This document shows positions 778 to 16,812 of a DNA stretch of 32,129 nucleotides, piece by piece (position 1 is the stretch's first letter; every line of letters begins with the position of its first letter). A program made the translations under genes and the position numbers. Origin of the DNA: Deltaproteobacteria bacterium (GTDB lineage Bacteria; Desulfobacterota; Binatia; UBA12015); NCBI GenBank assembly GCA_029262355.1, contig JAJCZO010000200.1, forward strand, positions 1-32,129. The letters run 5' to 3'. A model generated the notes under the pieces. That model had not been told where the DNA came from. It made no database searches and saw only the letters and a list, made by a program, of their open reading frames with translations.

Positions 778-1272
778 ATGCGTAGGACGAGGATGTACGG
801 GCCCGTCGGGGCATGGATGAGTCTGATCGATGGCTATGGCTGGGCCCGCACACGGGGTGGGCAGGCGCGCTACTCCTACCCGGATTGGGTCGCCGACACG
901 GTCGACATGTGGGCCGATCTCGGCTCGGCATGGTGGGGTGGTGGCCGCGACGAGGGTGAACGTCCCAATCTCGTTCTGTTTACGCTGCCGGCCGATGCGG
1001 ATGCCGAGCAAAAGAAGACGTTCGACCTCTGCCGCGGAGACTGGGGCAAGGACGAGGTCGGCGTGATCTGGTTGGGACCCGAGGGGGACTCCAAAGGCGT
1101 GAAGGGCTCACTATCCGCAGAGAACCTGAGCGTCGGGATCTCCAACGATGAGCTCACGATTGAGCTCAAGAACGTGAAGCCACAGTCCGGCGAACTTGCG
1201 AAGGCGGATTACAGGGCCCTCGTCCATCACAAGGACGTGATCCTGTCCGAGGTGTTCATCCGCGTTCGCTAG
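778..1272 (+). CDS. Unrecognised 164-residue protein: Trp-rich N-terminal helix, beta-type C-terminal half
   Basis: I do not recognise a family. A GGAGG ribosome binding site 8 bases before the ATG supports the start. Residues 10-55 are rich in Trp and Tyr, with the core PDWVADTVDMW around residue 36. The C-terminal half alternates hydrophobic and polar residues, as in a beta-sandwich, and ends in VFIRVR. Both halves resemble the 201-residue protein at 7601-8206 (PRRWIGTVERLW; ending VIVRVG), so the two look like distant paralogues on either side of the kinase gene. There is no signal peptide or membrane segment, so it is probably cytoplasmic. Its last 17 bases overlap the 3' end of the convergent kinase gene. 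It may be an accessory or substrate of the kinase (inference). Confidence 0.72.
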   Translation: MRRTRMYGPVGAWMSLIDGYGWARTRGGQARYSYPDWVADTVDMWADLGSAWWGGGRDEGERPNLVLFTLPADADAEQKKTFDLCRGDWGKDEVGVIWLGPEGDSKGVKGSLSAENLSVGISNDELTIELKNVKPQSGELAKADYRALVHHKDVILSEVFIRVR

Positions 1273-4200
1273 GCGCGCTGCGAAGCTCTTCCAGAAGTCG
1301 GGCTGCGTCGCGAAGCGGCTTGGTATCAAACCCCTCGGTGAAGCCCTCGTAAAGCGGTGCCAGGATCTGGACGGCTTCGGCGGAACGAGACGTCTCCGTC
1401 AGAACGCGTGCCAGCGCACTGCCGGCGCGAAGGGCAAACGTAGGGGCGCCCCGCTTCGTCCCAAGGGCGAGCGCATCTCGCAGTACCCCCTCCGCCGCCA
1501 CCAAGTCGCCCTTCATGGCGAGAAGCTCCCCTCGATAGCGCATGATCTCGGGTAGGTGGATCGACGCCCAGAGCCGCCCGCAGAGCTCAGTGCCTTCCTC
1601 GACGGCTCCGGCCACGTCATCGAGACGCCCTGCCCCCAGAGCCGCCTGGGCAAGATACGCCTGGTACGAATTGACGCTGCACATGGCGCCCACCGCCCGG
1701 TAGCGGTCGATTCCGTCGCGAATGAGGGCAAGCCCCTGGTCCGCCTGACCGGCCGCGGCCAGGGCAACCCCCACGGCGATCGCACCTGGCCCCCACCATC
1801 CGTAGAGCAATTGCTCCTCGGCGAGCTTCATCAGCCGCTCGCCTTGTGACTTGGCAGACTCGAGATCTCCTCGCTCGACTTCCAGCATCGTGCTGAACGC
1901 GAGGATGAGCGCCACCGAATACGGGTCGCGTCGCCGCTCGGCGAGCGCCAACCCTTCGTCGCGAAGGGCCGTTGCCTGATCGAAGAAGCCAAGCGACGAA
2001 AGCGCACTGAACTGAAACGCGAACGTATACAGGCCTCCGTCGTACCCCTCGAACTGGTCTTCTTCGCGGTAGTGCTTCATCGCTTCGACGAAGCACTTCT
2101 GCGCCTCCGGAACCTCACCACGCCAGTAGGCGGCGATGCCGAGGCAGCTCCAGCCCTGGTGAGCGAGGATCGGCTCCGACGTCCTCTCCGACCACGCCCG
2201 GACGCGCGGCAGCAGGCTCTCGACGCCGGTAGGGTCACTCCGTGTGATGTAGACACCCCAGATCCCGTAGATCACCATGAGCGGCGGCTCGACGCCGAGT
2301 TCGTCGCTGAGGTCGAGTGCGCGACGGAACGTAGATTCGGTCTCCGGGACAGCCCACCCCCGAGTCGAGAGGTACACGGTCCCTCGCAAGACGAGTAGGT
2401 CGAGCTCGCGCCGAACCAAGGCTGAATCGGCCGCGTTGCTTCGAGTCGTGGTGAGGCCGCGGTCGGTCTGCTTTAGCGCCTCTTCGAACGCGGCGCGCCG
2501 GTAGCTCTGGGCGCTGGCCCGAATCCACTGATCAGCCGCGTCGTGGCTTGCCCCCGCGCCGTCGAAGTGGATCGCGAGAATCTCCGGGCGGTCGGCGGCA
2601 ATCTCGGGGAAGTGATTCGACAGCGAGTCGGCCGCCCGCTGGTGGGCCGCGGTGCGAGCCCGTCTCGTCAACGCGTCGTAAGCAGCATCCCGTAGGAGCG
2701 CATGACGGAACAGGTACCGCGTTCCGTCGACACCCCGGCGCGGCTGAACCAGTCCAGCCTCGACGAGCTCGTCGAGGTCTGCGCGCACCCGCCCTGCCTC
2801 GCGACTGCTCACATGGCTGAGAAGCTCCGCCGAGAAATCCCGGCCCAGCGCCGCTGCGAGCTGGGCAGTTTCCCGGGCACCGGGGGAGACGCGGTCCAAA
2901 CGTGCCGTGAGTAAGTCTCGAACCGTCGATGGCACCGCCTGGAGGTCGGCTGAAGACTGGGACGCGTCGCCGCCAGCGTCGGCCCGCGCAATCGCGCGCG
3001 CGATCTCTGCGACGAAGAGGGGGACGCCGTCCGAGCGCTCGACGACAGCCTGAACGAGCGCATCAGGCAGGGGCTCGCCACGATCGAGGGTCTTCGCGAC
3101 CATCTCGGAGACCTGATCAGGTTTCAGCCGCTTGAGCGGCACGAGGCTCCAGGAGCCCACGGATGACGGCACGAACTCCGGCCGCGCCGTTCCCAAGAGG
3201 AGAGCGCTGCCCTGTTCCGCGGCGGCGAATGATTGGTCGGACGCCACGTCTTGGCCGATCATCGCGATCAGCTCCAGCGTGGTCGGATCGGCCCAATGCA
3301 GATTCTCGAAGAGAATGACGAGCGGGTGGTCGATGCAGATGGCGCGCACGAGAGCTGCCATCGCCTCGAGGGTCATCTCCTTGCGTCGTGGCGCGGATAG
3401 CTCGAGGCTCGAGCCGCCACTCGTTACGTCGCCAATCGCATCGCGGAGGAGCGTCTCGTACTCCGCTCTGCCGACCGGGTAGCGTTCGATGAGCTTCGAG
3501 AGCGGCGCCATCCGAAGAGCGGAAACGACCGGATGAAGTGGCGTCGTCTGGCTCTCTGGCTCGCAACGCAGCTCCAACCATGCGTCGCTGCCGACCTGCT
3601 CTCTAATCTCGCGAAGGAGTCGTGTCTTGCCGATCCCCGCTTCGCCGATCAGAAGCGCCGCCGCCCCTTCGCCGGCCTGCACTCCAGTCCAAAGCTCCAG
3701 AATCTGGCGCATCTCACGATCACGGCCAACGAACGCGGTCGGCGACCCCTCGGCGTCGGCAACGCCCGGACCACTGTGCAGAGCGTAGTATGGCAGCGGG
3801 CGGGAGAGCTCTCTTATCTCGCAATCGCCGACGCGTTCGCTGGCAAAGTCGCGTCGCAGGAGCAGCTGGGAATCGAGACTCACCAGCACTTCTCCGTCGC
3901 TCGCCCGGTCCGCAAGATAGCCCGCGACCGCGGGCGTGGAGCCCCGGAGCTCCGGCCGACTCGTCGCGCCGACTCGCTCCGGCACGACAACCAGGCCGGT
4001 GTGGATTCCCGCGCGTCGCTCGAAGCGCAGGGCGGCACCCTCTTCGTCGTCAAGGGCGGACACGCGAGCCACGAAATCCAATGCAAGCTGGCCGGCCCGT
4101 CGACAGTCGTTCTCGCTCGCGGAGAGATGGCCGAACACGAGGAAGACACGTCCGCCGACCGCGCCACCAATCGCGGCGCCGACCTCGATAGCGCTCGCCT

Positions 4201-5224
4201 CGAGCGCGGCCTGCTCTGCGTGAAGACGCTCGTCGACCTCGTCGAAGGTGAGTCCTTCGGCATCGGCTCCGGCGGCCGAAAAGGAGCAGCACGCGACCGT
4301 CACCTGCCGCCGAACACGGCCCGGCCCGCGCGCAGCGTTCGGACTCGAAGGGACTTGCGCGGCCAGGGCCGTCAGTTCGGCAAGAACGGCGCCGGCGTCG
4401 GACATTCGGCGGCGCGGGTCCTTCGCGACCACCGCTTCCAAGACCCGCCCGAGCGGCTGCGCGCGCAACGCATCAGGGATCGGGACCGGTGACGAGCCGA
4501 GTTGCCGATAGATCACCTCCTGCGCAGAGGCGCCGCGAATTGGGACGTCTCCCGTGAGGCACTCGAGTACCACGAGGCCCCACGAGTACAGGTCGGAGGT
4601 CGGCTCGGGCGCCTCACCACGGAGCTGCTCCGGTGAAGCGTAGCAGGGCGTGCCGAGCATCTGGCCCGTCTCCGTGATCCGCATCTCGTTGTGGGCGCGA
4701 AGGTCCCGCGCGAACCCGCCGAGTCCAAAGTCGACCAGGATCGCGTTCCGCCGCGCCCCCGTGCGCGTTAGCATGATGTTCGCGGGTGTGAGGTCGCGAT
4801 GCACGATGCCTCTGGAGTGGGCGCAGCTGAGCGCGTCCAGGACCTGCCCCATCAAGTGCAATGCCTCGCTCGGCTCGAGCTGTTCCTCCTCGACGAGAAC
4901 TTCTTGCAGTGAGGTCCCGGAGATGTGCTCAAACACGGCGTACAGGAAGTCTTCCCCAGCGTTGCTCGAATCGATGAGCCGCGCGATGTTCGGGTGGGCG
5001 AGTTCAGCGCAGACACCCAGCTCCCGCTCGAAGCGGGCCGTCAGCTGCGCGAGTTGGCCCGAAGTTTCGTCGCGAACCCGAAGCACTTTGATGGCCACGC
5101 GCTGGCCGGTTGAGAGCTGCTGGGCTTCATATACGCGTCCGTAGCTGCCCTCACCGAGAGGCGCGACGATGCGATAGGCGTCTTGGAACACGGTGCCGGG
5201 AACGAGATCTGGAGCCTGGAACAT
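1256..5224 (-). CDS. Ser/Thr kinase - nucleotide-cyclase-like - AAA ATPase - TPR fusion (TOMM kinase/cyclase type)
   Basis: This 1322-residue cytoplasmic signalling protein has four parts. Residues 17-285 are a Hanks-type kinase: glycine loop GEGSYG, VAIK (K46), HRDLTPAN (D144), DFG (D165) and SPEQ at 197-200, so it should be active. Residues 305-485 resemble a class III nucleotide cyclase (VTVACCSFS, GIHTGLVV), but the first metal aspartate is replaced (ACCS instead of a CDL-type motif), so this domain is probably a non-catalytic sensor. From about 497 there is an AAA_16-type ATPase: FVGRDREM, Walker A GEAGIGKTR at 527-535, and a Walker B-like region ending FENLHWADP. The last ~450 residues are TPR-like helices. 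The order matches the kinase/cyclase fusion proteins of TOMM loci and PknK-like kinases. No TOMM cyclodehydratase or precursor is visible nearby. It is divergent from the operon at 5367 and overlaps the end of the 778-1272 gene. Confidence 0.9.
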   Translation of the reverse strand: MFQAPDLVPGTVFQDAYRIVAPLGEGSYGRVYEAQQLSTGQRVAIKVLRVRDETSGQLAQLTARFERELGVCAELAHPNIARLIDSSNAGEDFLYAVFEHISGTSLQEVLVEEEQLEPSEALHLMGQVLDALSCAHSRGIVHRDLTPANIMLTRTGARRNAILVDFGLGGFARDLRAHNEMRITETGQMLGTPCYASPEQLRGEAPEPTSDLYSWGLVVLECLTGDVPIRGASAQEVIYRQLGSSPVPIPDALRAQPLGRVLEAVVAKDPRRRMSDAGAVLAELTALAAQVPSSPNAARGPGRVRRQVTVACCSFSAAGADAEGLTFDEVDERLHAEQAALEASAIEVGAAIGGAVGGRVFLVFGHLSASENDCRRAGQLALDFVARVSALDDEEGAALRFERRAGIHTGLVVVPERVGATSRPELRGSTPAVAGYLADRASDGEVLVSLDSQLLLRRDFASERVGDCEIRELSRPLPYYALHSGPGVADAEGSPTAFVGRDREMRQILELWTGVQAGEGAAALLIGEAGIGKTRLLREIREQVGSDAWLELRCEPESQTTPLHPVVSALRMAPLSKLIERYPVGRAEYETLLRDAIGDVTSGGSSLELSAPRRKEMTLEAMAALVRAICIDHPLVILFENLHWADPTTLELIAMIGQDVASDQSFAAAEQGSALLLGTARPEFVPSSVGSWSLVPLKRLKPDQVSEMVAKTLDRGEPLPDALVQAVVERSDGVPLFVAEIARAIARADAGGDASQSSADLQAVPSTVRDLLTARLDRVSPGARETAQLAAALGRDFSAELLSHVSSREAGRVRADLDELVEAGLVQPRRGVDGTRYLFRHALLRDAAYDALTRRARTAAHQRAADSLSNHFPEIAADRPEILAIHFDGAGASHDAADQWIRASAQSYRRAAFEEALKQTDRGLTTTRSNAADSALVRRELDLLVLRGTVYLSTRGWAVPETESTFRRALDLSDELGVEPPLMVIYGIWGVYITRSDPTGVESLLPRVRAWSERTSEPILAHQGWSCLGIAAYWRGEVPEAQKCFVEAMKHYREEDQFEGYDGGLYTFAFQFSALSSLGFFDQATALRDEGLALAERRRDPYSVALILAFSTMLEVERGDLESAKSQGERLMKLAEEQLLYGWWGPGAIAVGVALAAAGQADQGLALIRDGIDRYRAVGAMCSVNSYQAYLAQAALGAGRLDDVAGAVEEGTELCGRLWASIHLPEIMRYRGELLAMKGDLVAAEGVLRDALALGTKRGAPTFALRAGSALARVLTETSRSAEAVQILAPLYEGFTEGFDTKPLRDAARLLEELRSAPSERG

Positions 5225-5366
5225 GTAACTGATTAGACCGCTTCCGTCGCCGACGGCAAGCTGCGCCAGTTCGCGGATTCGCTTGCCCGGGCCAGCCCAC
5301 CAAGCCTATGATCCCGCCACATTGGTGTCGGACGGCCTCGGCTCGTCCAAGACGAGGGCGAGGCGC

Positions 5367-6377
5367 ATGTTCGGAACATTCGGGACTTCACCGGCATGGG
5401 GTACGGCGGAGCAAGCAACGCATTCGGCGCTCTGGAGCGTCTTCGTCGACATCGATCGGGTGAAAGACGCCGAGAGGTTCAGCAGGCGCTATGACGTCGA
5501 CGACGCGGAGAGCGTCGGCCGCCAGCTCCTTTCGTTGTTGGACTTGAAGAAGCACTCGGGCGAAACGCCGTTGGCCCCGGTCCGCACGGCTTACACGAAG
5601 CTCGCGCTCTGGACGCTCGCGCCCAGGTTCGAGTTCATTGCGCGCCGCAAGCCGGCTACGGCTGGTGCGCTCCGCCAGGCCTTCGTCGACACGTTTGGCT
5701 TCCCCCCTGCCGCGCGTCGTCCCCGTGCGGACGACGGAAACCTCGTGCCCGACATGCCGGAACTAGGCATCGAAGACGCCGAATGCACGGTCGAGGCGCA
5801 CCGGCGAAGGGTTCGGGGCCACCTCACGAGCACGATCCACCTGCCGTTCGCAGACCTGAAGGAATCGATTCACCCGCCGAACTGGGGCGACAGTCCGTTC
5901 TGGACCGATGTCGTGCAAGCCAAGGATTCCGCCGGCCGGTGGGGCTGCGGACTGCGCCTCCCCGGGGGCAAGGACCCCGGGCCCGAGAAGACGAGAAGCG
6001 TGCTCCTCCACTGTGACATCGCAATGTCTGCATTCGACGCCCGTGTCGACTACCGTGGCTGCGAGGCTGCGGCCCTGACGCACCCTGAGGTGGTCGATGG
6101 CCAGGAAGCCGTCGTCGATTCCCCGGAAGGCGAGAGCGGGAAGCCCGAGCGCTGGGTCGAGGTGGGCGACTTCAACGGGTTTCTCGCCATCGAAAAGTTG
6201 GCCGGGCGCCCGTTCAGCTGCCGAGTCTCACTCCAAAGAGAGGTCACGTTTCTGCAGATCAATCACCAGCTTCGTGCGTCTGAGACTCTGCGCTACTGGC
6301 TGGCCACCGACCTTCTCGCTCTCGCCGAGGCAGCCTACGAGCGCCTGAACCCCAAACCCCTGTACCCGCTGGGCTGA
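5367..6377 (+). CDS. Unrecognised 336-residue protein, first of a paralogous pair
   Basis: I do not recognise a family. The frame is open back to a TTG at 5283, but the ATG at 5367 follows a GAGGGCGAGG purine-rich stretch and is the better start. Residues 155-175 hold HLPFADLKESIHPPNWGDSP, and residues 271-292 hold GFLAIEKLAGRPFSCRV. Both blocks recur at the same relative place in the next gene (VPLDAFKP-IDPKNW and GFIEARRVPGRPQWC), so the two are tandem paralogues of similar length (336 and 328). The alternation of strands and an ending amphipathic helix would suit a lipid- or ligand-binding helix-grip fold, but this is only a guess. There is no signal peptide. It is the first gene of a four-gene operon (11-base gap to the next gene), divergent from the kinase gene, so co-regulation with the kinase is plausible. 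Confidence 0.78.
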   Translation: MFGTFGTSPAWGTAEQATHSALWSVFVDIDRVKDAERFSRRYDVDDAESVGRQLLSLLDLKKHSGETPLAPVRTAYTKLALWTLAPRFEFIARRKPATAGALRQAFVDTFGFPPAARRPRADDGNLVPDMPELGIEDAECTVEAHRRRVRGHLTSTIHLPFADLKESIHPPNWGDSPFWTDVVQAKDSAGRWGCGLRLPGGKDPGPEKTRSVLLHCDIAMSAFDARVDYRGCEAAALTHPEVVDGQEAVVDSPEGESGKPERWVEVGDFNGFLAIEKLAGRPFSCRVSLQREVTFLQINHQLRASETLRYWLATDLLALAEAAYERLNPKPLYPLG

Positions 6378-6388
6378 GGGCAGACGAC

Positions 6389-7375
6389 GTGGCCAATTCC
6401 ACGATGGGTGCGAGAAGCACCGCAGACGCACTGCGAGCCAGAGAGCGCGCGCTTCTATGGAACACGACGTTCCGAACGCTCTATGGAGCGCCGAGCGGGG
6501 AGACGTTGGCTGGGATCGAACCCGGCCAGCTACCTGGACCAGAGGTCATCGGTCAGCTGAGTCGATCACAACTCGTGGCGAGGCCGGAGCTGCTCCGACG
6601 GGTTCTTGGCCCGCCGATCGCGACCGGAGACGCCGCCCCCTACCGCCCCCACCTCGACTACCGAGAACTCGTGATCGCTTCAGTGCGCGACATCGCGCCG
6701 TGGCCGCGATCGTTCGACGATGCGTTCGAAGAGCTTCGGCGGATTTTTAGTAAGAGTTCCGACTTCCTCCCGGGGGACGATGTCGAGAAGGAGCTCTTTG
6801 CGCTCGAGCGCCTGCTGGCACCGGAGGAGTTGATCCTCACCGAAGGGCCCGTCATTCGGCAACACCACGGTGTCTCGACGGTGAGTCGTAGGGCGCGGTT
6901 CCGCGTGCCGCTGGACGCTTTCAAGCCGATGATCGATCCGAAGAACTGGCTCCAGATGGGGCCCTTCTTCGAGGCGGTCGGCCCTATCGAGAGCGAGAAA
7001 ACCGAGCGGGACGACGGGTGGGAAGGCGTTCTGGAAGAACGGTTCGTAGTCGACTGGAGCGGTTTGGAACTCCAACGATTTCACACGTTCCTCAAGGTCG
7101 ACTACACCTTCGATGACGACCGGGTTCGCGCCGACTACTCGCTGATCTACGAGATCGACGATCAGATCGAGCGCGACAGCGGGTTCATCGAAGCACGTCG
7201 AGTTCCCGGCCGCCCGCAATGGTGTGAGTATTATGCGGAGAAGGTCATGCGATTTCGGGCGGCTCAAGCGAACCTTTATTCTCCGATCATCATGTCGGCG
7301 TTCCTCCAGAGCGGACTCAATGCGATGGAAGAGAAAGCGGTCGGCTACAACTTGAGGGCTCGGATATGGGGATGA
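6389..7375 (+). CDS. Unrecognised 328-residue protein, second of a paralogous pair
   Basis: Translation starts with GTG 11 bases after the previous stop, which implies transcription in one unit. Residues 172-195 contain VPLDAFKPMIDPKNW followed by GPFF; residues 265-290 contain GFIEARRVPGRPQWCEYYAEKVMRF. These align with the corresponding blocks of the upstream gene product, including the invariant NW, GRP and Cys positions, while the N-terminal halves have diverged. The stretch at 218-258 (FVVDWSGLELQRF, then VDYTFDDD) alternates as beta strands. There is no signal peptide or membrane helix. The family is unknown to me. Its stop overlaps the next start by 10 bases, so translation is probably coupled. 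Confidence 0.78.
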   Translation: MANSTMGARSTADALRARERALLWNTTFRTLYGAPSGETLAGIEPGQLPGPEVIGQLSRSQLVARPELLRRVLGPPIATGDAAPYRPHLDYRELVIASVRDIAPWPRSFDDAFEELRRIFSKSSDFLPGDDVEKELFALERLLAPEELILTEGPVIRQHHGVSTVSRRARFRVPLDAFKPMIDPKNWLQMGPFFEAVGPIESEKTERDDGWEGVLEERFVVDWSGLELQRFHTFLKVDYTFDDDRVRADYSLIYEIDDQIERDSGFIEARRVPGRPQWCEYYAEKVMRFRAAQANLYSPIIMSAFLQSGLNAMEEKAVGYNLRARIWG

Positions 7376-7608
7376 ACGACCGCGATCCACTCGCCCGCGT
7401 CCTGGAGCTCCAGGCACGTACGATCCGTCGTACGGCCCGGTGGTGGATGACCGCCGTCGAACGGGTCCAGGGAGGCGACTTGGCGCCCGGCACATGGCTC
7501 GACGCGCAGGCGCAGTTCGTCAACGGTGTCATCGAGGATTCCGAAGAGTTACTCCGCAAAGAGCGTCCGCGGAAGAACAGCCCCGCCGAGGAGAAATCCG
7601 ATGACTAA
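7366..7608 (+). CDS. Unrecognised 80-residue protein with the Trp-helix motif
   Basis: This is a small basic/acidic helical protein. A GAGGG at 7354-7358, seven bases before the ATG at 7366, supports that start; the ATG at 7372, which overlaps the previous stop as ATGA, is an alternative. Residues 25-62 read RWWMTAVERVQ, then GGDLAPGTWLDAQAQ and NGVIEDSEEL. This matches the first 60 residues of the next gene product, with the same G-x4-P-x2-W spacing and a GV(I/A)EDS block. The protein stops after this helical segment and lacks the beta-type half. It overlaps its neighbours by 10 and 8 bases, so it sits inside a tightly coupled operon. A small adaptor or granule-type protein is possible, but function is unknown. 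Confidence 0.72.
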   Translation: MGMNDRDPLARVLELQARTIRRTARWWMTAVERVQGGDLAPGTWLDAQAQFVNGVIEDSEELLRKERPRKNSPAEEKSDD

Positions 7609-8206
7609 GAGGCGAGTCGAGTACGCGTTGGGGGCACCGCTCCTCGATAGGTGGACCCGTTATCTTCAAGACGTGCAGGAGCTGACGCTGGAGGGCTCGG
7701 TCGAGCCCCGACGCTGGATCGGTACGGTCGAGCGGCTCTGGCTGGGCGTTGCCGAGGACTCGGGAGACTGGGTCCGCCAACTCGACGATGGTGGGGTGGG
7801 TGATGCTCGAGCGCGCAGCACTGCGCAGAGCGCCAGCAATGTCTTCTGTGTCGAGCACGAACGCAAGAGCTCCGCCATGATCCGGGTTCCGCTCGAGGCG
7901 TTCGACACCCTCCGCGCCGACAAGTTGCGATTGCGCCCCGCCCCGCTGCTCTGCTGCGGGGAGATCGTCGCGCGGCCAGGACGAAACCTCTTGATCGCCA
8001 CACCGGGAGAGGCACCCGATCGGTCCGACGCCATCGTGGACCGGAACCAGCGTTCGAAAGAGCTTCACATATTCGACCTACCGCAGCTCACTGCGGGGAT
8101 GATTTTGAATGGCACCGTATGGGCAGAAGCCGACCGCGGTCCTGGCAAGACGAGCATGACGAACGTCCCGATGCCGGTCGCAACGGTCATCGTCCGCGTT
8201 GGCTGA
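7601..8206 (+). CDS. Unrecognised 201-residue protein: Trp-helix plus beta-type domain
   Basis: The ATG at 7601 is preceded by GAGGAG and overlaps the preceding gene by 8 bases; the longer frame from 7526 would run far into that gene and is not preferred. Residues 15-60 carry the segment DRWTRYLQDVQ, then GSVEPRRWIGTVERLW and GVAEDSGDW, shared with the 80-residue protein just upstream. Residues 95-201 look beta-rich (IRVPLEAFDTLRADKL, ending VATVIVRVG) and resemble the C-terminal half of the 778-1272 product. A cysteine pair (LLCCGE) lies in the middle. No secretion signal. This is the last gene of the operon; the following region is degraded. The family is unknown to me. Confidence 0.74.
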   Translation: MTKRRVEYALGAPLLDRWTRYLQDVQELTLEGSVEPRRWIGTVERLWLGVAEDSGDWVRQLDDGGVGDARARSTAQSASNVFCVEHERKSSAMIRVPLEAFDTLRADKLRLRPAPLLCCGEIVARPGRNLLIATPGEAPDRSDAIVDRNQRSKELHIFDLPQLTAGMILNGTVWAEADRGPGKTSMTNVPMPVATVIVRVG

Positions 8207-8438: not shown

Positions 8439-8990
8439 CTACGCGGGTAACTTTGCGCGCGCCTCTTTCATTCCAGCGACCAGGGTCTCGGTCGCGGTGT
8501 CGACGAAGGCGGCCAGGTTTCGCTTGGATTCGACCAGGACTCCGGCCGCCACGAGTTCCGCGATGCCGTGAACCAGCGACCAGGCAGTTCGCGCGAGAGG
8601 CGTCGGATCGCCGGTCCTGAGCAGGTCTGCCTCCTGGCCCTCACGGATCAGGCCCTCGACGACACCGAACACTGCGTTCGCGATCTCGCGCGAGACCGCG
8701 TCCTTTCGCGGACGGAACATGACGCGGAAGTGCGACGGTCTCCGGCGGGCGAACTCGACGTAGGCGAGTCCGGCACGCTGCAACCGGCCCGTGGGCGAGG
8801 ACTCGTCGGCCATGGCCAACGTCATAGACTTCCCGAGTTCCCCGAAGCCCTCACTCGCGATGGCGGTGACGAGGGCGTCCTTGTCGGGGAAGTGCGGATA
8901 GGGAGCGTTGTGGGAAACTCCCGCCCGGCGGGCGACTTCCCGGAGCGTCAGCCCATCCGGCCCGGCCTCCTTGATCAGTTCCAGGCCCAG
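8439..8990 (-). pseudogene. TetR-family regulator lacking its own start
   Basis: TetR regulators bind DNA through an N-terminal helix-turn-helix. The block LTLREVARRAGVSHNAPYPHF is the classical TetR recognition segment, and the helical ligand-binding part follows to the stop at 8439 (ending EARAKLPA). The first helix begins at LGLELIKEAG and then the similarity stops; the usual 10-25 preceding residues and start codon are absent. The frame stays open far upstream, but only as the antisense of the carotenoid oxygenase remnant. The nearest GTG in frame lies about 100 bases inside that remnant, and I see no ATG or TTG closer. The gene is therefore 5'-truncated at about 8990. A functional hybrid using an upstream GTG cannot be excluded. 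Confidence 0.7.
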
Positions 8991-9713
8991 CGGCCTTTCT
9001 TCGGTCTCGTCGAGTCCCTGCCCGACGAGAAGTCGTACCGCCCGCGGGTGGAGGGGCGGATTCCCGAGGGGCTTCGCGGCACGCTCTACCGCAACGGTCC
9101 GGGGCTCTTCGAGCGCGACGGCCACCGCCTGCGCTGTCTCCTCGACGGAGATGGGATGGTTCAGGCCTTCACGTTCGGCGACGCGAGTGTGCACTACCAG
9201 ACCCGCTTCGTGCGCACGGCGAAGTACGAGCGCGACGAACGGGCAGGGCGCTTCGTCGGTCAGAGCTGGACGACGCCCGCCCCCGGAGGCTGGATCGCGA
9301 ACCTGGGCGTCGGCCACTTCCCGGATACGTCTGGAGTGAACGCGCAGGTGTGGGCGGGGAAGCTCTACGCGCTGGAGGACGCAAACCCGGCGCATCGGAT
9401 GGACCCCGAGACTCTCGCGACGGAGGGACTCGAGCGGTTCGGGCTCGACAGAGCGTTGTTTTCCGCACATCCAAAGCAGGATCGCCGCCGCGGCGCTTGG
9501 GTCCACTTCGGGCTCGGCGTTGGGTTGCGCGAACTGTTCCTATCGACCCTCGACGCCGCGGGTCGTGCCACCGACGCACGGCGGAGCCCTCTCGCCATCC
9601 TACGGGCCGACGCGATTTCGGAGGGCCCGGTTGCACGTGTCCTGCTCGACCACCACACACCGCTCAGCTTTCACGGAAGCTGGGAGCCCACCGGGGGCTA
9701 CGCCGCCGTCTAG
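8991..9713 (+). pseudogene. Carotenoid oxygenase (RPE65/CCD family) remnant, truncated at both ends
   Basis: The family cleaves carotenoids or related polyenes with an iron held by four histidines. Recognisable here are VEGRIPEGLRGTLYRNGPGL near the start, LLDGDGMVQAF, and a YALEDANPAHRMDPETL block that matches the N-terminal half of the family. Family members are about 450-500 residues; this stretch gives about 240 and then loses similarity after LSTLDAAGRATDA, with a stop at 9713. At least the later iron-binding histidines are therefore missing. At the 5' side there is no start codon near PFFGLVESLP: the sequence runs directly into the antisense of the TetR gene. It cannot make a working enzyme. 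Confidence 0.75.
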
Positions 9714-10908: not shown

Positions 10909-13095
10909 GTGGCTTCGGCTAAACAGTGCGCGATGCCAGGAGCACGCTCAGCCACCAGTGATTCGGCGATCTCACGGGCGAACGAGCTCTGGGTGCTGAA
11001 CTCCTTGGCCGTCGCGCAACCGCTCTTCGACCTGATCGGCGCGAACCCGCCGTTTCTGATCGCGCACCGGGCGGAAGTCATCGATGTGCTGGTCCTCGTG
11101 GCAACGCTGCTGCTCGGAGTGCCGATTCTCGGGCTACTCGTAGAGGCGCTCGCCGGTGTCGTCGGGGGAACGTTCCAGCGCGCCCTCCATCGGTTCTCGA
11201 TGGTCGCATTGGTGACGCTCGCGCTCTACCCCGTGCTTGTTCGGTCGATCGATGCCCCCGAGGCCGTCACCATCGGGGGGGGCGTGGTGGGCGGTGTCGG
11301 CTTCGTGTTGTTGCACCGGTCGTCGACAACTCTACGTGAGTTGCTCCGCTTCATGGCACCTGTGCCGATCGTCTTCGCCGCGATCTTCTTGAGCGCCGAG
11401 AGTGTGCGGCCGTTGATGGCCCGATCGGAGAATCCCGCGCTCGAGGCGCCTCGTCGCGCAGAGGCACCCATCGTCTTCCTGCTGCTCGACGAGCTGCCTC
11501 TTTACGCGCTCCTCAACCAGGAACTCGAGGTCGACGCGGAGCTCTTCCCCTCATTCGCGCGCCTTGCCTCCGACAGCATTTGGCTGCGCAATGCGACGGC
11601 CGTCCATCCCCTCACCACCATCGCCGTACCGTCGATCCTGAACGGTCGTCGCGCTCGTCGGAGCTTCGAGGGGTCCCTCCGGGGCTCCAAGGAGCAGAAC
11701 CTCTTCACATGGCTCGGGAGCTCGCACCGGCTGGTCGTTCGCGAGAAGATCACGGCCCTCTGTCCGCCCGAGGCGTGCGAGGAGCTCGTGGCGCCGGTGG
11801 CGCCCGGTGTGCGGATCCAGACCCTCCTCCGCGACGCCGCTGTAGTCTGGGGACATTCAGCTTTGCCTCGTTCGGTCGCCGGCACCCTACCCTCGGTCGA
11901 TACGCGTTGGGCCGACTTCGCAGGAGCAATCGAGCCGACGGAGGAAGGGGAAGTCTTCCGGGCCTTGATCAGCTCGGTCGATGGCGGCTCGCGCCCGACA
12001 CTCTACTTCCTCCATCTCCTCGTGCCGCACGTTCCGTGGTTTGGGTTACCGACAGGTCTGACCTACCCCCAAGGGCGCGCGGGGGCGACCCTCGGCTTGG
12101 AAGACATGCCAGACGTCTTCCGTCGCCACCTGGCCACTCGACCGCCCCGCAAGGGGCCCCTGCTGGGGGGGCGCGAGCGGTCGCTCGAACCATGGCCAGC
12201 GAAGCTCGCCTTTCAGCGCCACCTGCTCCAGGTGGGGTACGTGGATTCGCTTCTGGGCGAGTTGCTGGATCGGCTCGAAGAGACCGGAATCTACGACCGG
12301 GCCCTCATCGTGGTCACGAGTGATCACGGCGTCGCATTCCAGCCAGGAGAGCATCGACGTCGCGTCGTCGACGCGAATTTACGCGACATCGTTCATGTCC
12401 CGCTCTTCGTGAAACCGCCCTTTTCCCGTGAGCCGCTCATCGACGACCGCAACGTCGAGTCGATGGACATCCTGCCGACGATGGCAGACGCGCTCGGCAT
12501 CGAGATTCCCGATTGGGTCGACGGACAGTCCGCACTCGACGACTCGGCCCCGCGCCGGCCGACGAAGATCGTGGTCGACCGGAAACGAGAGCATGAGATC
12601 GACGCGCGGCTTCCGACGACGTGGTACGGGCTGCGGCTCAAGAATGAACTCTTCGGGCCGCACCCCAGCTGGGACGATGTCTACGCGTTGAGCTCGAGGC
12701 CTGCCTTGCTCGGGCGGCGTGCGGACGCCGTCGCCGCCGAGGCGCGGTCGGATCTGTCGTATCGACTTCTCTTCCCCGAGTGGTTCGCCGACGTCGACCC
12801 GGAGAGCGGCCGCTTCCCGGCCTATGTGCCGGGCATCGTGAAGGCCACTGAAGCGGCAGCTCTTCCCGAGGAGGTCGCGCTCGCTGTCAACGGCGTGATC
12901 CGGGGCGTCGGGCGCACTTTCGCACGAGTGAGCGACACCGCCGCGTTCGCCATGATGCTCCCCCCCGACGCCTTCCGGGCCGGCGAGAATCGAGTGGAGA
13001 TCTTCGCGCTGGACGGGCAGGCCCGCCTCCGTCCGATTGCGGCCGGACACTGGCCAGCGGTCCGCCCGGACTCCTACGGCCTCCCAAACAGGTGA
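10909..13095 (+). CDS. Membrane-anchored sulfatase-fold (alkaline phosphatase superfamily) protein
   Basis: 728 residues from a GTG start; an ATG at 10933 is an alternative and neither has a well-spaced ribosome binding site. The N-terminal ~185 residues hold about four membrane helices (for example VIDVLVLVATLLLGVPILGL and a segment near PVPIVFAAIFLSAE). The rest is a periplasmic sulfatase/phosphoglycerol-transferase-like domain: IVFLLLDELPLY supplies the first metal aspartate, AVHPLTTIAVPSILNGR is the nucleophile region with Thr rather than Cys, and VVTSDHGVAFQPGEH gives the distal metal DH pair. Lack of Cys rules out a formylglycine sulfatase; phospho-group transfer or hydrolysis on envelope lipids or polymers is more likely (inference). 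It converges on the next gene, 143 bases away. Confidence 0.85.
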   Translation: MASAKQCAMPGARSATSDSAISRANELWVLNSLAVAQPLFDLIGANPPFLIAHRAEVIDVLVLVATLLLGVPILGLLVEALAGVVGGTFQRALHRFSMVALVTLALYPVLVRSIDAPEAVTIGGGVVGGVGFVLLHRSSTTLRELLRFMAPVPIVFAAIFLSAESVRPLMARSENPALEAPRRAEAPIVFLLLDELPLYALLNQELEVDAELFPSFARLASDSIWLRNATAVHPLTTIAVPSILNGRRARRSFEGSLRGSKEQNLFTWLGSSHRLVVREKITALCPPEACEELVAPVAPGVRIQTLLRDAAVVWGHSALPRSVAGTLPSVDTRWADFAGAIEPTEEGEVFRALISSVDGGSRPTLYFLHLLVPHVPWFGLPTGLTYPQGRAGATLGLEDMPDVFRRHLATRPPRKGPLLGGRERSLEPWPAKLAFQRHLLQVGYVDSLLGELLDRLEETGIYDRALIVVTSDHGVAFQPGEHRRRVVDANLRDIVHVPLFVKPPFSREPLIDDRNVESMDILPTMADALGIEIPDWVDGQSALDDSAPRRPTKIVVDRKREHEIDARLPTTWYGLRLKNELFGPHPSWDDVYALSSRPALLGRRADAVAAEARSDLSYRLLFPEWFADVDPESGRFPAYVPGIVKATEAAALPEEVALAVNGVIRGVGRTFARVSDTAAFAMMLPPDAFRAGENRVEIFALDGQARLRPIAAGHWPAVRPDSYGLPNR

Positions 13096-13238
13096 GACTT
13101 CGCTCCTGGCCGTGACCTCGGAGACTTGCGCAGGTGAGGCATCGGGCGGCTGCGCGACGCGGGCCCGCGTAGAGGCGAGGACGTCGTCGAAAGTCGGCAC
13201 GGTCCGCGCCGCTGTGGTCGCTTTGGCCCACCTTCGCC

Positions 13239-15068
13239 CTACTCGACGTACCCCAAGGACCGGAGCCGACGCACTTCTTCGAGCGGCAGCTCCAGGGCCT
13301 CTGGCGAGGCGCCGTGTCGATCGAGCTCGACCTGCTGCAGTCTCTCCATGTCCCTCAGCCTGCGCCGGAACGGGCCGCGGCGTTTCGGGTGATTTCGCAG
13401 GAGCTCGTCTCGCTGAAAGGGGTCCTCGGCCACGTCGTACATCTCGCTCCGTCCGTAGCGTTCGAAGTATCGATGTCGGCCGACGGCGAGCGCGCGTGTG
13501 TCGTAGGACACGGCAAGCGCCCTTCGCTCGTCCTCGGAACGTGTCTTTGGCTGCTCGATGGCACTCCGAAGCGCGTTGCGCGGAGTCGGCAGCCCGGCGG
13601 CCTCCAGCATCAATGCGGCGAGATCCCAGTTTTGTACGGGCCCGTCCACGACCAGGCCCCCGCTGATGCCCGGACCCCGTACGATGAGCGGTACGCGCCA
13701 CACCTCCTCGAAGAAGTCGCGGTGCAGGAACTTCCCGTGCTCACCGAACTCCTCACCGTGGTCGGAGGTGACGATGATCAACGTGTTCGGGGCGTGACTC
13801 TCGATGGCTGCCACGAGTCTGGCGATCTGGGCGTCGACGTACGCGATGGCGCCGTCGTACAGGCAGACCGCCTCGGCGAGCGCCTCGGCACTGGGCGGGG
13901 TCCGATTCCAAGCGAGCAGGAGGTCCGAGCCGGTCGGTCCGCCCCGGATTGCATCGCGGAGTCGGGGGGTGTCGCAGTACTGACCGTCATACGGTGCCGG
14001 GGCGGCGTACGGAAGCCCGTGGGGGCGTGAGTGCACCTCGTAGGTGTGAAGGAAGAGAAACCATGGTCGGCGCCGTGAGGTGATCCACCGTAGGGCCGCA
14101 TCGACTTGCCCCTCCAGAACACCCACGAATCCGCGGATCCAGTAGCCGTAGAGCTGCACCAGTTCGCGCAGGAGCGAGCCCGGCACGACGGGGTAGGGTG
14201 GATGCTGGTACCGGGCGAACCCTTGCGCGAGACCGGTTTCCGACCCCACGAAGGAGTAACGTCCCATCCCCACGAGAGCGGCGGTGTCGTACCCCTGGTC
14301 CCGCAGTCGCTCGGCCACGGTGGCGATCTGCTCGGAGAGTCGTTGCCCGGGTTTGCGAACGCCGTGCGCCAAGGGCCCGAGTCCTGTGAGCATGGAAGCG
14401 TGCGACGGTAGCGTCCACCACGACGCGGCGTAGGCTTCGGAAAACCGCACGCCTCGCGCGGCCAGGCGGTCCAGATTCGGACTCGTATCCCGATGGTAGC
14501 CGTACGCGCCCAGGTGGTCTGCTCGCATCGTGTCGACAGAGATCAACGCCACGTTTGGGGGCCCCGCAGCGATCTCTTGGGCTCCGTGCGGGGCGTGTGT
14601 CACGGCGAGTCCGATGACCAACAGCGGCACTGCGGCGACGGTCTTTGGGTTGCGGGCGCATCGCTCGCCGACTGCCAACCAGCGAGCCGAAGAGAGCCGC
14701 AACACGACCGGGGCGAGCGCGACAGCGAGGGCCGTCGCGGCGAGGCTGACCACGACCGGCGTCTTCACTCCTGCCTGCCGACCGAGGAAGAAGGCCAGAC
14801 CGCCTATGAGGAGCGGCAGCATGAGCGTGCGGGTCCACGCGAGTTGCGTGAACTCGGAGCGGTGCGAGCCCAGCCGAGCCGGCACCCAGCACAGTGCGAA
14901 CGCGAGCGTCACGAGAATCGCCGGCGTGAGAACGCTGGCCGCGAGGAGGACGAGGTTTAGCTGCCAAGGCCCGGCCAGCACGTTCGCGCCCAAGGCCGCA
15001 TCGAATGCCCCGATCCAGAGCCCCATGCACGCCCAGGAGAGCGCGGCTTTGAGAAGACACGGCCGCAT
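13239..15068 (-). CDS. Membrane sulfatase-fold hydrolase with Thr nucleophile
   Basis: 609 residues. Residues 5-165 contain four or five hydrophobic helices (LNLVLLAASVLTPAILVTLA, TLMLPLLIGGLAFFLG, TVAAVPLLVIGLAV). A periplasmic domain follows: PNVALISVDTMRADHLGAYG gives a first metal aspartate, ASWWTLPSHASMLTGL is the nucleophile motif with Thr in the Cys/Ser position, and IVTSDHGEEFGEHG gives the distal metal residues. The C-terminal LRSLGYVE ending is typical of this sulfatase subgroup. Without Cys or Ser, the formylglycine mechanism is unlikely, so a phosphatase or phosphotransferase role is possible. It starts 82 bases after the stop of the upstream sulfatase gene on the same strand and may share its promoter. 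Confidence 0.86.
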   Translation of the reverse strand: MRPCLLKAALSWACMGLWIGAFDAALGANVLAGPWQLNLVLLAASVLTPAILVTLAFALCWVPARLGSHRSEFTQLAWTRTLMLPLLIGGLAFFLGRQAGVKTPVVVSLAATALAVALAPVVLRLSSARWLAVGERCARNPKTVAAVPLLVIGLAVTHAPHGAQEIAAGPPNVALISVDTMRADHLGAYGYHRDTSPNLDRLAARGVRFSEAYAASWWTLPSHASMLTGLGPLAHGVRKPGQRLSEQIATVAERLRDQGYDTAALVGMGRYSFVGSETGLAQGFARYQHPPYPVVPGSLLRELVQLYGYWIRGFVGVLEGQVDAALRWITSRRRPWFLFLHTYEVHSRPHGLPYAAPAPYDGQYCDTPRLRDAIRGGPTGSDLLLAWNRTPPSAEALAEAVCLYDGAIAYVDAQIARLVAAIESHAPNTLIIVTSDHGEEFGEHGKFLHRDFFEEVWRVPLIVRGPGISGGLVVDGPVQNWDLAALMLEAAGLPTPRNALRSAIEQPKTRSEDERRALAVSYDTRALAVGRHRYFERYGRSEMYDVAEDPFQRDELLRNHPKRRGPFRRRLRDMERLQQVELDRHGASPEALELPLEEVRRLRSLGYVE

Positions 15069-15150
15069 GATCCGTTGGCACCGTTAGCAGACGTGCTCTC
15101 GGGTCGACGAAGCGATCCCGACGCCGCGGGATCGCATGGAATCGCCGCCG

Positions 15151-16812
15151 TCAGTTCGACCAATAGATGTACTCGTCGTCCGGCGCGTCCGGAATCGAGA
15201 GGTCCTTGTCGATGTTGATCGGGAACGAACCGCCCGAGGGCCAGCGCGACGGGGTCTGCTGCGCGTTGTGAGCCGCGAGCGCTCTCGTCAACTCCGCGAG
15301 CTTCTCGGGGCGTTCGGCGGAGAGATCATGCTGCTCGGTAGGGTCGGCGCGGAGGTCGAAGAGCCAACTGCGTCCCGGCGGATTGCTGACGTTGAGCTTC
15401 CACCCGTTCACGAGCGCGCTCTGAGAGGCTCCACTGCGCCAGAAGAGCGCCTCGTGCGTCGCTCCAGCCGCCTCCCCGCGCGCGAAGGGCACCAGGTCGA
15501 CTCCATCGATCTTGCGATCGGTCGGCAGCGGCGCAGCGGCGGCGGCCGCCGCGGTCGCGAATGCGTCGAAGTGGTGCACCGGTTGGTCGACGGTTGTCCC
15601 AGGGGCGATCTTGGCGGGCCACTTCACGAAGTAAGGGACGTGGATGCCGCCCTCGAAGAGCGTGATCTTCCAGCCGCGGAAGGGGTCGTTGACGTCCGGC
15701 AAGCCGATGTATCCTGCGCCTCCGTTGTCGGAAGTGAAGATCACGAGCGTGTTCTCCTCGAGTCCGTTCTCGCGGAGCGCGTCCAGCACCTGCCCGACGC
15801 CGCGATCGAGAGCTCGGATCATCGCCGCGTACACCCGCTCGCGATGCAGCTCGATGTGAGACAGAGCATCGTAGTCTTCCTTGGTCGCCTGGAGCGGAGT
15901 GTGGGGAGCCCAGTGAGCGAGGTAGAGGAAGAACGGGCGGTCCTTGTTCGCCTCGATCACCTTGACGGCTTCATCGGTGTAGTAGTCGGTGAGGTAGCCG
16001 GCCGGCTCGAAAGCGTCGCCGCCGTTGAAGCTTGCGGCGTACCTCATCGCGGCCCACAGGAATCGATCGATTGGGTCGAAGTCCTGCTTTGCGTTGACGA
16101 CCTCTGGGTCGTCCTCGGGCAGATAGAGACCACTGGCCATGAGCAGGCTCTCGTCGAAGCCCTGATCCTCCGGCGCCATCCCGCTGGTGCGGCCGAGATG
16201 CCACTTCCCGATGTGCACCGTGTGATATCCCTGCTCCGACAGAAGCTCCGCGATCGTGATCTCCGAGGCGGGCATCCCCATCTCGTCGTAGTCGACCGAG
16301 TCGCCACCCTCGCCGGGGAGCCCGAGGCGCAGTCTGTCGGTCGACTCGCCGGCCATCATCCCGACGAGCGTTCCCATGCCGGGTGGAGTGGGCGTGAACT
16401 CGAAACCGAAGCGCGTTCCGTAGCGCCCGGACAGGAGCGCTGCGCGCGACGGTGCGCACGTCCCGTTCGCCGCGTAGCCGTTCACGAAGTTCGCCCCCTC
16501 GGCAGCGATCGAATCGATTCGCGGCGTCGGAACTGTTCCTCCCGCGACACCGCCACCTCCGAACGTCAGGTCGTTCCACCCGAGGTCGTCGGCGAGAATC
16601 AGCACGATGTTTGGAGGCCGATCCCCCGGAGTACTCGGGGGTGGGGGGCCCTGCTCCCACTGGACCGGGATGTTCGGACCGGCTGCTACCCGGCGATCCA
16701 TCACGACTCCGATGGCACCCAACATCAGGGTGCTGCGGTTCGACCACGCCACGGCGAGCAGGATCGCGAGGACTAGGGTGACTCCGAGGGCGACTCTTGT
16801 GATCTTCTTCAC
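15151..16812 (-). CDS. Type I (formylglycine) sulfatase, arylsulfatase-like
   Basis: 553 residues. Sulfatases hydrolyse sulfate esters using a formylglycine made from Cys. Seen here: NIVLILADDLGWNDLTFGG (metal-binding DD), NGTCAPSRAALLSGRYGTRF (complete C-x-P-S-R signature), GKWHLGR, and VIFTSDNGGAGY (distal metal residues). A single N-terminal hydrophobic helix (residues 5-22, after KKITR) anchors or exports it. I prefer the GTG at 16812 to the ATG at 16905. The GTG directly precedes the signal helix and has GGAG 11 bases upstream, while the ATG lies in the -35 box of a good promoter. No maturase (formylglycine-generating enzyme) gene is in the window. The next gene on the strand encodes another sulfatase-fold protein. 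Confidence 0.9.
   Translation of the reverse strand: MKKITRVALGVTLVLAILLAVAWSNRSTLMLGAIGVVMDRRVAAGPNIPVQWEQGPPPPSTPGDRPPNIVLILADDLGWNDLTFGGGGVAGGTVPTPRIDSIAAEGANFVNGYAANGTCAPSRAALLSGRYGTRFGFEFTPTPPGMGTLVGMMAGESTDRLRLGLPGEGGDSVDYDEMGMPASEITIAELLSEQGYHTVHIGKWHLGRTSGMAPEDQGFDESLLMASGLYLPEDDPEVVNAKQDFDPIDRFLWAAMRYAASFNGGDAFEPAGYLTDYYTDEAVKVIEANKDRPFFLYLAHWAPHTPLQATKEDYDALSHIELHRERVYAAMIRALDRGVGQVLDALRENGLEENTLVIFTSDNGGAGYIGLPDVNDPFRGWKITLFEGGIHVPYFVKWPAKIAPGTTVDQPVHHFDAFATAAAAAAAPLPTDRKIDGVDLVPFARGEAAGATHEALFWRSGASQSALVNGWKLNVSNPPGRSWLFDLRADPTEQHDLSAERPEKLAELTRALAAHNAQQTPSRWPSGGSFPINIDKDLSIPDAPDDEYIYWSN

Follow-up and report, generated by a model that had tools for sequence, protein, structure and literature searches.

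Which process does a giant protein kinase serve when the genes around it match no recognised family? The question is raised by a 32,129-nucleotide stretch of DNA from Deltaproteobacteria bacterium (assembly GCA_029262355.1, contig JAJCZO010000200.1, positions 1 to 32,129; hereafter the window), in which the gene for a 1322-residue protein, K, is flanked by the small genes A on one side and B, C, E and D on the other. Pfam and TIGR03903 resolve K into a Ser/Thr kinase, a cyclase-homology domain, an AAA_16 ATPase and TPR repeats. K matches TIGR03903 over its whole length at 742 bits, above the curated cut-off of 705.75, which confirms an earlier note, made from the letters of the window, that had described a TOMM-type signalling protein. 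The same profile matched 45 stretches of the source genome (7.8 Mb) at E 0.001, most of them portions of cyclase-ATPase-TPR proteins, K being the sole full-length match above the cut-off. Likewise, the five flanking proteins, for which the note had recognised no family, gave zero matches beyond chance in Pfam, NCBIfam, PADLOC and PHROGs. A TOMM role is nonetheless unlikely, since no match to YcaO (PF02624) was found in the whole source genome, ~93% complete (controls positive in 5/14). A TOMM precursor and a cyclodehydratase or docking protein were not apparent by eye in the window's gene calls, YcaO being the only such component searched for. The reading that we prefer, at a probability of roughly 0.5, places K in a conserved locus whose likely function is to make and carry an isoprenoid lipid, with K as the predicted switch.

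The left edge of the window cuts through the gene for a polyprenyl synthase (PPS), and the left half of the locus falls outside the window. The last 20 bases of another contig of the source genome, C272, are the window's first 20, and the PPS frame runs on across the overlap; with bases drawn evenly, ~1e-9 overlaps of this kind would be expected by chance across the other 452 contigs. C272 carries, in one direction, an SDH-like reductase gene, a flavin oxidoreductase gene (FADox), a small gene H1 and the first 118 residues of PPS. The join, made from assembled contig ends rather than reads, would restore the full locus in the order SDH-FADox-H1-PPS-A, then K on the opposite strand, then B-C-E-D (Table 1).

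A search with K in 98 relatives (E 1e-60, the best 6 candidates per genome being scored) returned a K-related protein in 42. The match ran from kinase to TPR in eight of them (G000, G020, G031, G032, G037, G043, G057 and G096), and the DNA around all eight genes was read, the K of G096 being cut at its start by a contig end. FADox, SDH, PPS and H1 lie beside K in 7/8 of these genomes, which span five families. The most distant K (33%), from G031, has HGD in place of HRD in its kinase. The exception, G057:C8, is a K that stands alone in the 20 kb read, as would be expected of an orphan kinase beside unrelated genes. Such a chance neighbourhood is nevertheless extremely unlikely and disfavoured: the other seven loci have the set in common, and with one full-length K match in 7.8 Mb, a gene would seldom fall within 6 kb of it by chance. 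The comparison of neighbourhoods thus favours a conserved system in which the kinase serves a non-TOMM role, as the earlier note had suspected, and places PPS, whose membership had been left open, within the set. The main partners, however, are metabolic enzymes that the note had missed, and the five small genes that it had put at the centre are rarer additions.

Similar recurrence was observed starting from FADox, which was found in 24 of the 98 relatives. All 24 loci were read, and five cut by contig ends (G039, G051, G052, G073 and G097) were set aside, leaving 19 uncut loci to be counted. A kinase and/or cyclase-ATPase protein lies 2-6167 bases from FADox in 17 of the 19; seven of these regulators combine a kinase with the cyclase-homology domain, nine a cyclase with the ATPase and one a kinase with the ATPase. 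G053 is counted among the nine with the start of its protein unread, so a kinase part is possible there. The same locus holds a second, different kinase gene (636 aa, L101:14308-16218) ~3 kb from FADox, on the side opposite the cyclase-ATPase protein. In a sample of 395 genomes from the phylum, 5 had FADox (E 1e-100), all from the source's own class. The locus is patchy, since FADox was not found in 13 other searched genomes of the source's own family.

Outside the class, FADox relatives occur on 11 plasmid records, and four of these were read. In three of the four (Qingshengfaniella, Catenovulum and Azospirillum) FADox has an ADC-family protein as its neighbour or fusion partner, and in three it adjoins a large regulator (Azospirillum, kinase-ATPase-GAF-PAS-histidine kinase; Rufibacter, kinase-ATPase-GAF-cyclase; Qingshengfaniella, cyclase-ATPase-TPR), indicating that FADox and such regulators travel together beyond the class. 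FADox and its partners could then act as a general module by which giant regulators sense redox state or metabolites, with PPS as a lineage-specific addition and isoprenoids not the main point. PPS is not annotated nearby in the three records with a giant regulator, and the two FADox proteins most distant in the class, from G025 and G048, likewise lack PPS yet adjoin a kinase-ATPase and a cyclase-ATPase protein, respectively (L105, L106). However, PPS stands beside FADox in 17/19 uncut loci within the class, and Catenovulum has FADox and ADC with no giant regulator annotated within 9 kb, so that we hold a sensing module to be decidedly improbable.

The regulators of the preferred isoprenoid-lipid locus come in two versions with different output domains. 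The Gly loop, the VAIK Lys, the HRD Asp and the DFG Asp are all present in the kinase of the window K. Of the two metal-binding Asp residues of the cyclase domain, 8/8 kinase-bearing regulators compared have lost the first and 4/8 the second; the window K has lost both, and its cyclase-homology domain is predicted to make no cyclic nucleotide. Conversely, both Asp residues are kept in 7/7 readable kinase-less regulators (G021, G046, G057, G064, G069, G074 and G084), that of G057 standing with the enzyme set elsewhere in the genome that also holds the solitary K. A single branch of the FADox tree parts the two versions (8 and 7 rows; support 78/86), and one version change was obtained in 100% of 200 bootstrap trees. 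Four positions ahead of its first Asp-rich motif, PPS has F in 7/7 kinase loci and L in the 8/8 cyclase-ATPase loci printed. START-like genes were observed at 5/7 kinase loci (G000, G020, G031, G032 and G096; weakly in G037) and at 0/10 other regulator-bearing loci, and are present in the cut loci G039 and G051. The split between kinase with degenerate cyclase and cyclase without kinase amounts to a natural experiment, in which the output is exchanged and the target pathway is kept.

The enzymes point to prenyl chemistry, albeit with activities inferred from remote similarity. PPS resembles the trans-polyprenyl (isoprenyl) diphosphate synthases in its PF00348 match and in having both Asp-rich motifs, the first of them (DDVED) on C272 and the second altered; it lies above no NCBIfam equivalog cut-off. 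The region before the first Asp-rich motif of such a synthase sets chain length, and we take the motif type seen in these PPS to fit C20. FADox (~700 aa) combines NAD_binding_8 and amine-oxidase domains and is nearest to the hydroxysqualene dehydroxylase HpnE and the carotene desaturases. Its scores are far under their cut-offs (best NCBIfam match TIGR03467, 56 bits against 283), and no sequence relatives were found in the PDB at E 0.001. SDH carries a saccharopine dehydrogenase NADP-binding domain. ADC-like proteins are added in sister loci, one being present in 8/11 chosen genomes. Long ADC-like proteins of 735-1010 aa, which look like two fused halves, adjoin PPS or FADox in such loci.

Residues of about 150-328 of C form a helix-grip fold with a long C-terminal helix in the AlphaFold model compared with the PDB, and a START/SRPBCC fold is predicted for C. 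In contrast to the START/SRPBCC ligand-binding and aromatase/cyclase proteins, C has an extra N-terminal helical domain; identity is <=15% among the matches listed, and no family match was obtained at the sequence level. Among 5.8 billion proteins, 12 relatives of C besides itself were found, and none of B. The comparison of B with the C family gave E 1e-4 by hhalign but a probability of only 58%, and E 0.004 by BLASTP; the two are probably related, and B START-like. Since C/E and E/D overlap and C starts only 11-26 bases past the end of B, B-C-E-D looks like one operon. The tight arrangement had been noticed before, and the same gene order recurs in one other genome (G051, contig G051:C73, L015), with identities of 44% for B, 43% for C, 39% for E and 45% for D, the value for B, which is cut by the contig end, being over the part present.

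The other small proteins, A, E, D and H1, have in common a predicted helical-pair layout. The claim that the five flanking genes come from two families was not confirmed for this group: kinship is unsupported by the four profile pairs compared, H1-A, H1-D, A-E and D-E (probability <8%), and A-D gave E 0.5 by BLASTP. Eight relatives of A were found among the 5.8 billion proteins, and its model has a pLDDT of 66. The amphipathicity of helix 1 of E and of D, and of both helices of one H1, exceeds that of shuffled sequences (fraction 0.0025-0.0085), the fractions elsewhere being 0.05 for helix 2 of E, 0.11 for helix 2 of D, and 0.06 and 0.80 for A. No Pfam match, to a coat-protein family or to any other, was found for A, D, E and H1 of the source genome or for H1 of G043 and G020.

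In the mechanism that we propose, PPS would make a short prenyl diphosphate (likely C20), the chain of which FADox and SDH would desaturate or reduce; the START-like B and C would bind, move or cyclise the oily product, while H1, A, D and E would serve as an amphipathic coat or scaffold. K would sense a signal via its ATPase-TPR part and would phosphorylate at least one of the proteins of the kinase version, the START-like and A-type proteins first. In the sister version, the kinase-less regulator, whose cyclase metal sites are intact, would control these same enzymes via a cyclic nucleotide. A more specific form, speculative and rather unlikely as a whole, is a bacterial prenyl-lipid globule: the lipid would be made by the enzymes, coated by the helical pairs and ferried by the START fold, and the store opened and closed by phosphorylation, the sister version swapping kinase for cyclase on the same ATPase-TPR chassis with one live output each. 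Somewhat easier to credit, although still doubtful, is that the product of the same locus is a terpenoid or carotenoid-like secondary metabolite that is soluble or exported, in which case the START-like proteins would be cyclases, there would be no storage or coat, and K would tune expression only.

Several observations weigh against an isoprenoid-lipid locus switched by K. In the window K the catalytic loop reads HRDLT (Lys to Thr), whereas the other seven kinase-bearing regulators have DLK; DLT is found also in the kinase-ATPase protein of G025. Similarly, the second motif of the window PPS is DDLLT, against DDxLN in 19 others printed, and the window copy, with both changes, may be weakened or specialised. 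The ADC-like partner of the sister loci was not found in the source genome, and none of the loci has a recognisable terpene or phytoene synthase. Besides the solitary K of G057, there are the enzymes of G079 and of G077 (an 11.7-kb contig), which have no regulator within the DNA read, and in G043, with K and the enzymes, a START-like gene was not found in 20 kb. B-C-E-D is known in two genomes, together with K in one only. The search of G051 with K gave six matches and no full-length K; five are without a kinase part, and the sixth, the beginning of a kinase truncated where its contig stops, is not beside B. The G051 contigs with SDH-FADox-H1-PPS and with B-C-E-D both stop at the expected place of K, with non-overlapping ends, so that either the assembly or the genome itself may lack K. 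Finally, the two versions track related lineages, and the START and motif counts are therefore non-independent events.

Of the two roles that the earlier note had offered, assembly or storage is nearer to these observations than a phage response. A kinase-run phage- or stress-defence system is suggested by the resemblance of the kinase domain to PADLOC kinase models such as PD-T4-6. However, these matches are generic, the best 25 of 37 lying mostly on the kinase domain, and K was the only one of the window's K and five small proteins to be matched; the small proteins gave nothing above chance in PADLOC or PHROGs, and the conserved partners are metabolic enzymes, which together make defence very unlikely.

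Table 1. Features of the locus in window coordinates; positions of sister-locus proteins are preceded by the locus name.
Feature	Position	Strand	Evidence or remark
PPS, C-terminal 237 residues	2..715	+	PF00348 95.8 bits; 20-base contig overlap; orthologues in same set
Gene A, predicted helical pair and beta-sandwich	778..1272 (first base 778 or 793)	+	counterparts beside K in G020, G096
K, Ser/Thr kinase, degenerate cyclase-homology domain, AAA_16 ATPase, TPR	1256..5224	-	Pfam, TIGR03903
Divergent intergenic region, K vs B-C-E-D	5225..5366	.	gene coordinates; would hold both promoters
Gene B, probable START-like	5367..6377	+	ATG; possible TTG start 5283
Gene C, helical domain and predicted START/SRPBCC domain	6389..7375	+	GTG; possible ATG 6404
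Gene E, 78-aa predicted helical pair	7372..7608	+	overlaps C and D
Gene D, predicted helical pair and C-terminal region	7601..8206	+	45% identical counterpart in G051
Fused-looking ADC-like proteins	L097:7807-10014, L098:5730-7937, L094:4200-6809, L096:15223-18255		

Further along the window, gene D is adjoined by a carotenoid-oxygenase (RPE65) fragment at 9042-9557 (+), inside the frame 8568-9713, which covers profile positions 14-185 of 469, looks incomplete and was not seen as a member of the set in sister loci. A TetR-type regulator (8442-9506, -; TetR_N, TetR_C_33) overlaps it on the opposite strand, and three consecutive sulfatase-family genes occupy 10933-16812.

The function label of TIGR03903 (TOMM) does not fit at this locus, and the gene company of K suggests an isoprenoid lipid metabolism that a kinase controls directly, by which several unnamed protein families gain a first testable role. 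A description of this gene set was not found in the open-access literature by word matching. K is like the TOMM proteins of TIGR03903 in its whole-length kinase/cyclase fusion match above the cut-off, but differs from the TOMM kinases in the lost cyclase metal residues and in its company of PPS and oxidoreductases. A system that may work alike is that of the prenyl-lipid droplets, namely cyanobacterial cyanoglobules and plant plastoglobules. Their kinase is of the ABC1 type and their carriers are fibrillins. The cyanoglobule proteome includes an FAD-dependent oxidoreductase, an acetoacetate-decarboxylase-family protein described as homologous to NXD1, a kinase, a fibrillin and several reductases (PMC12923008), a likeness between protein lists that offers a parallel in working and no proof.

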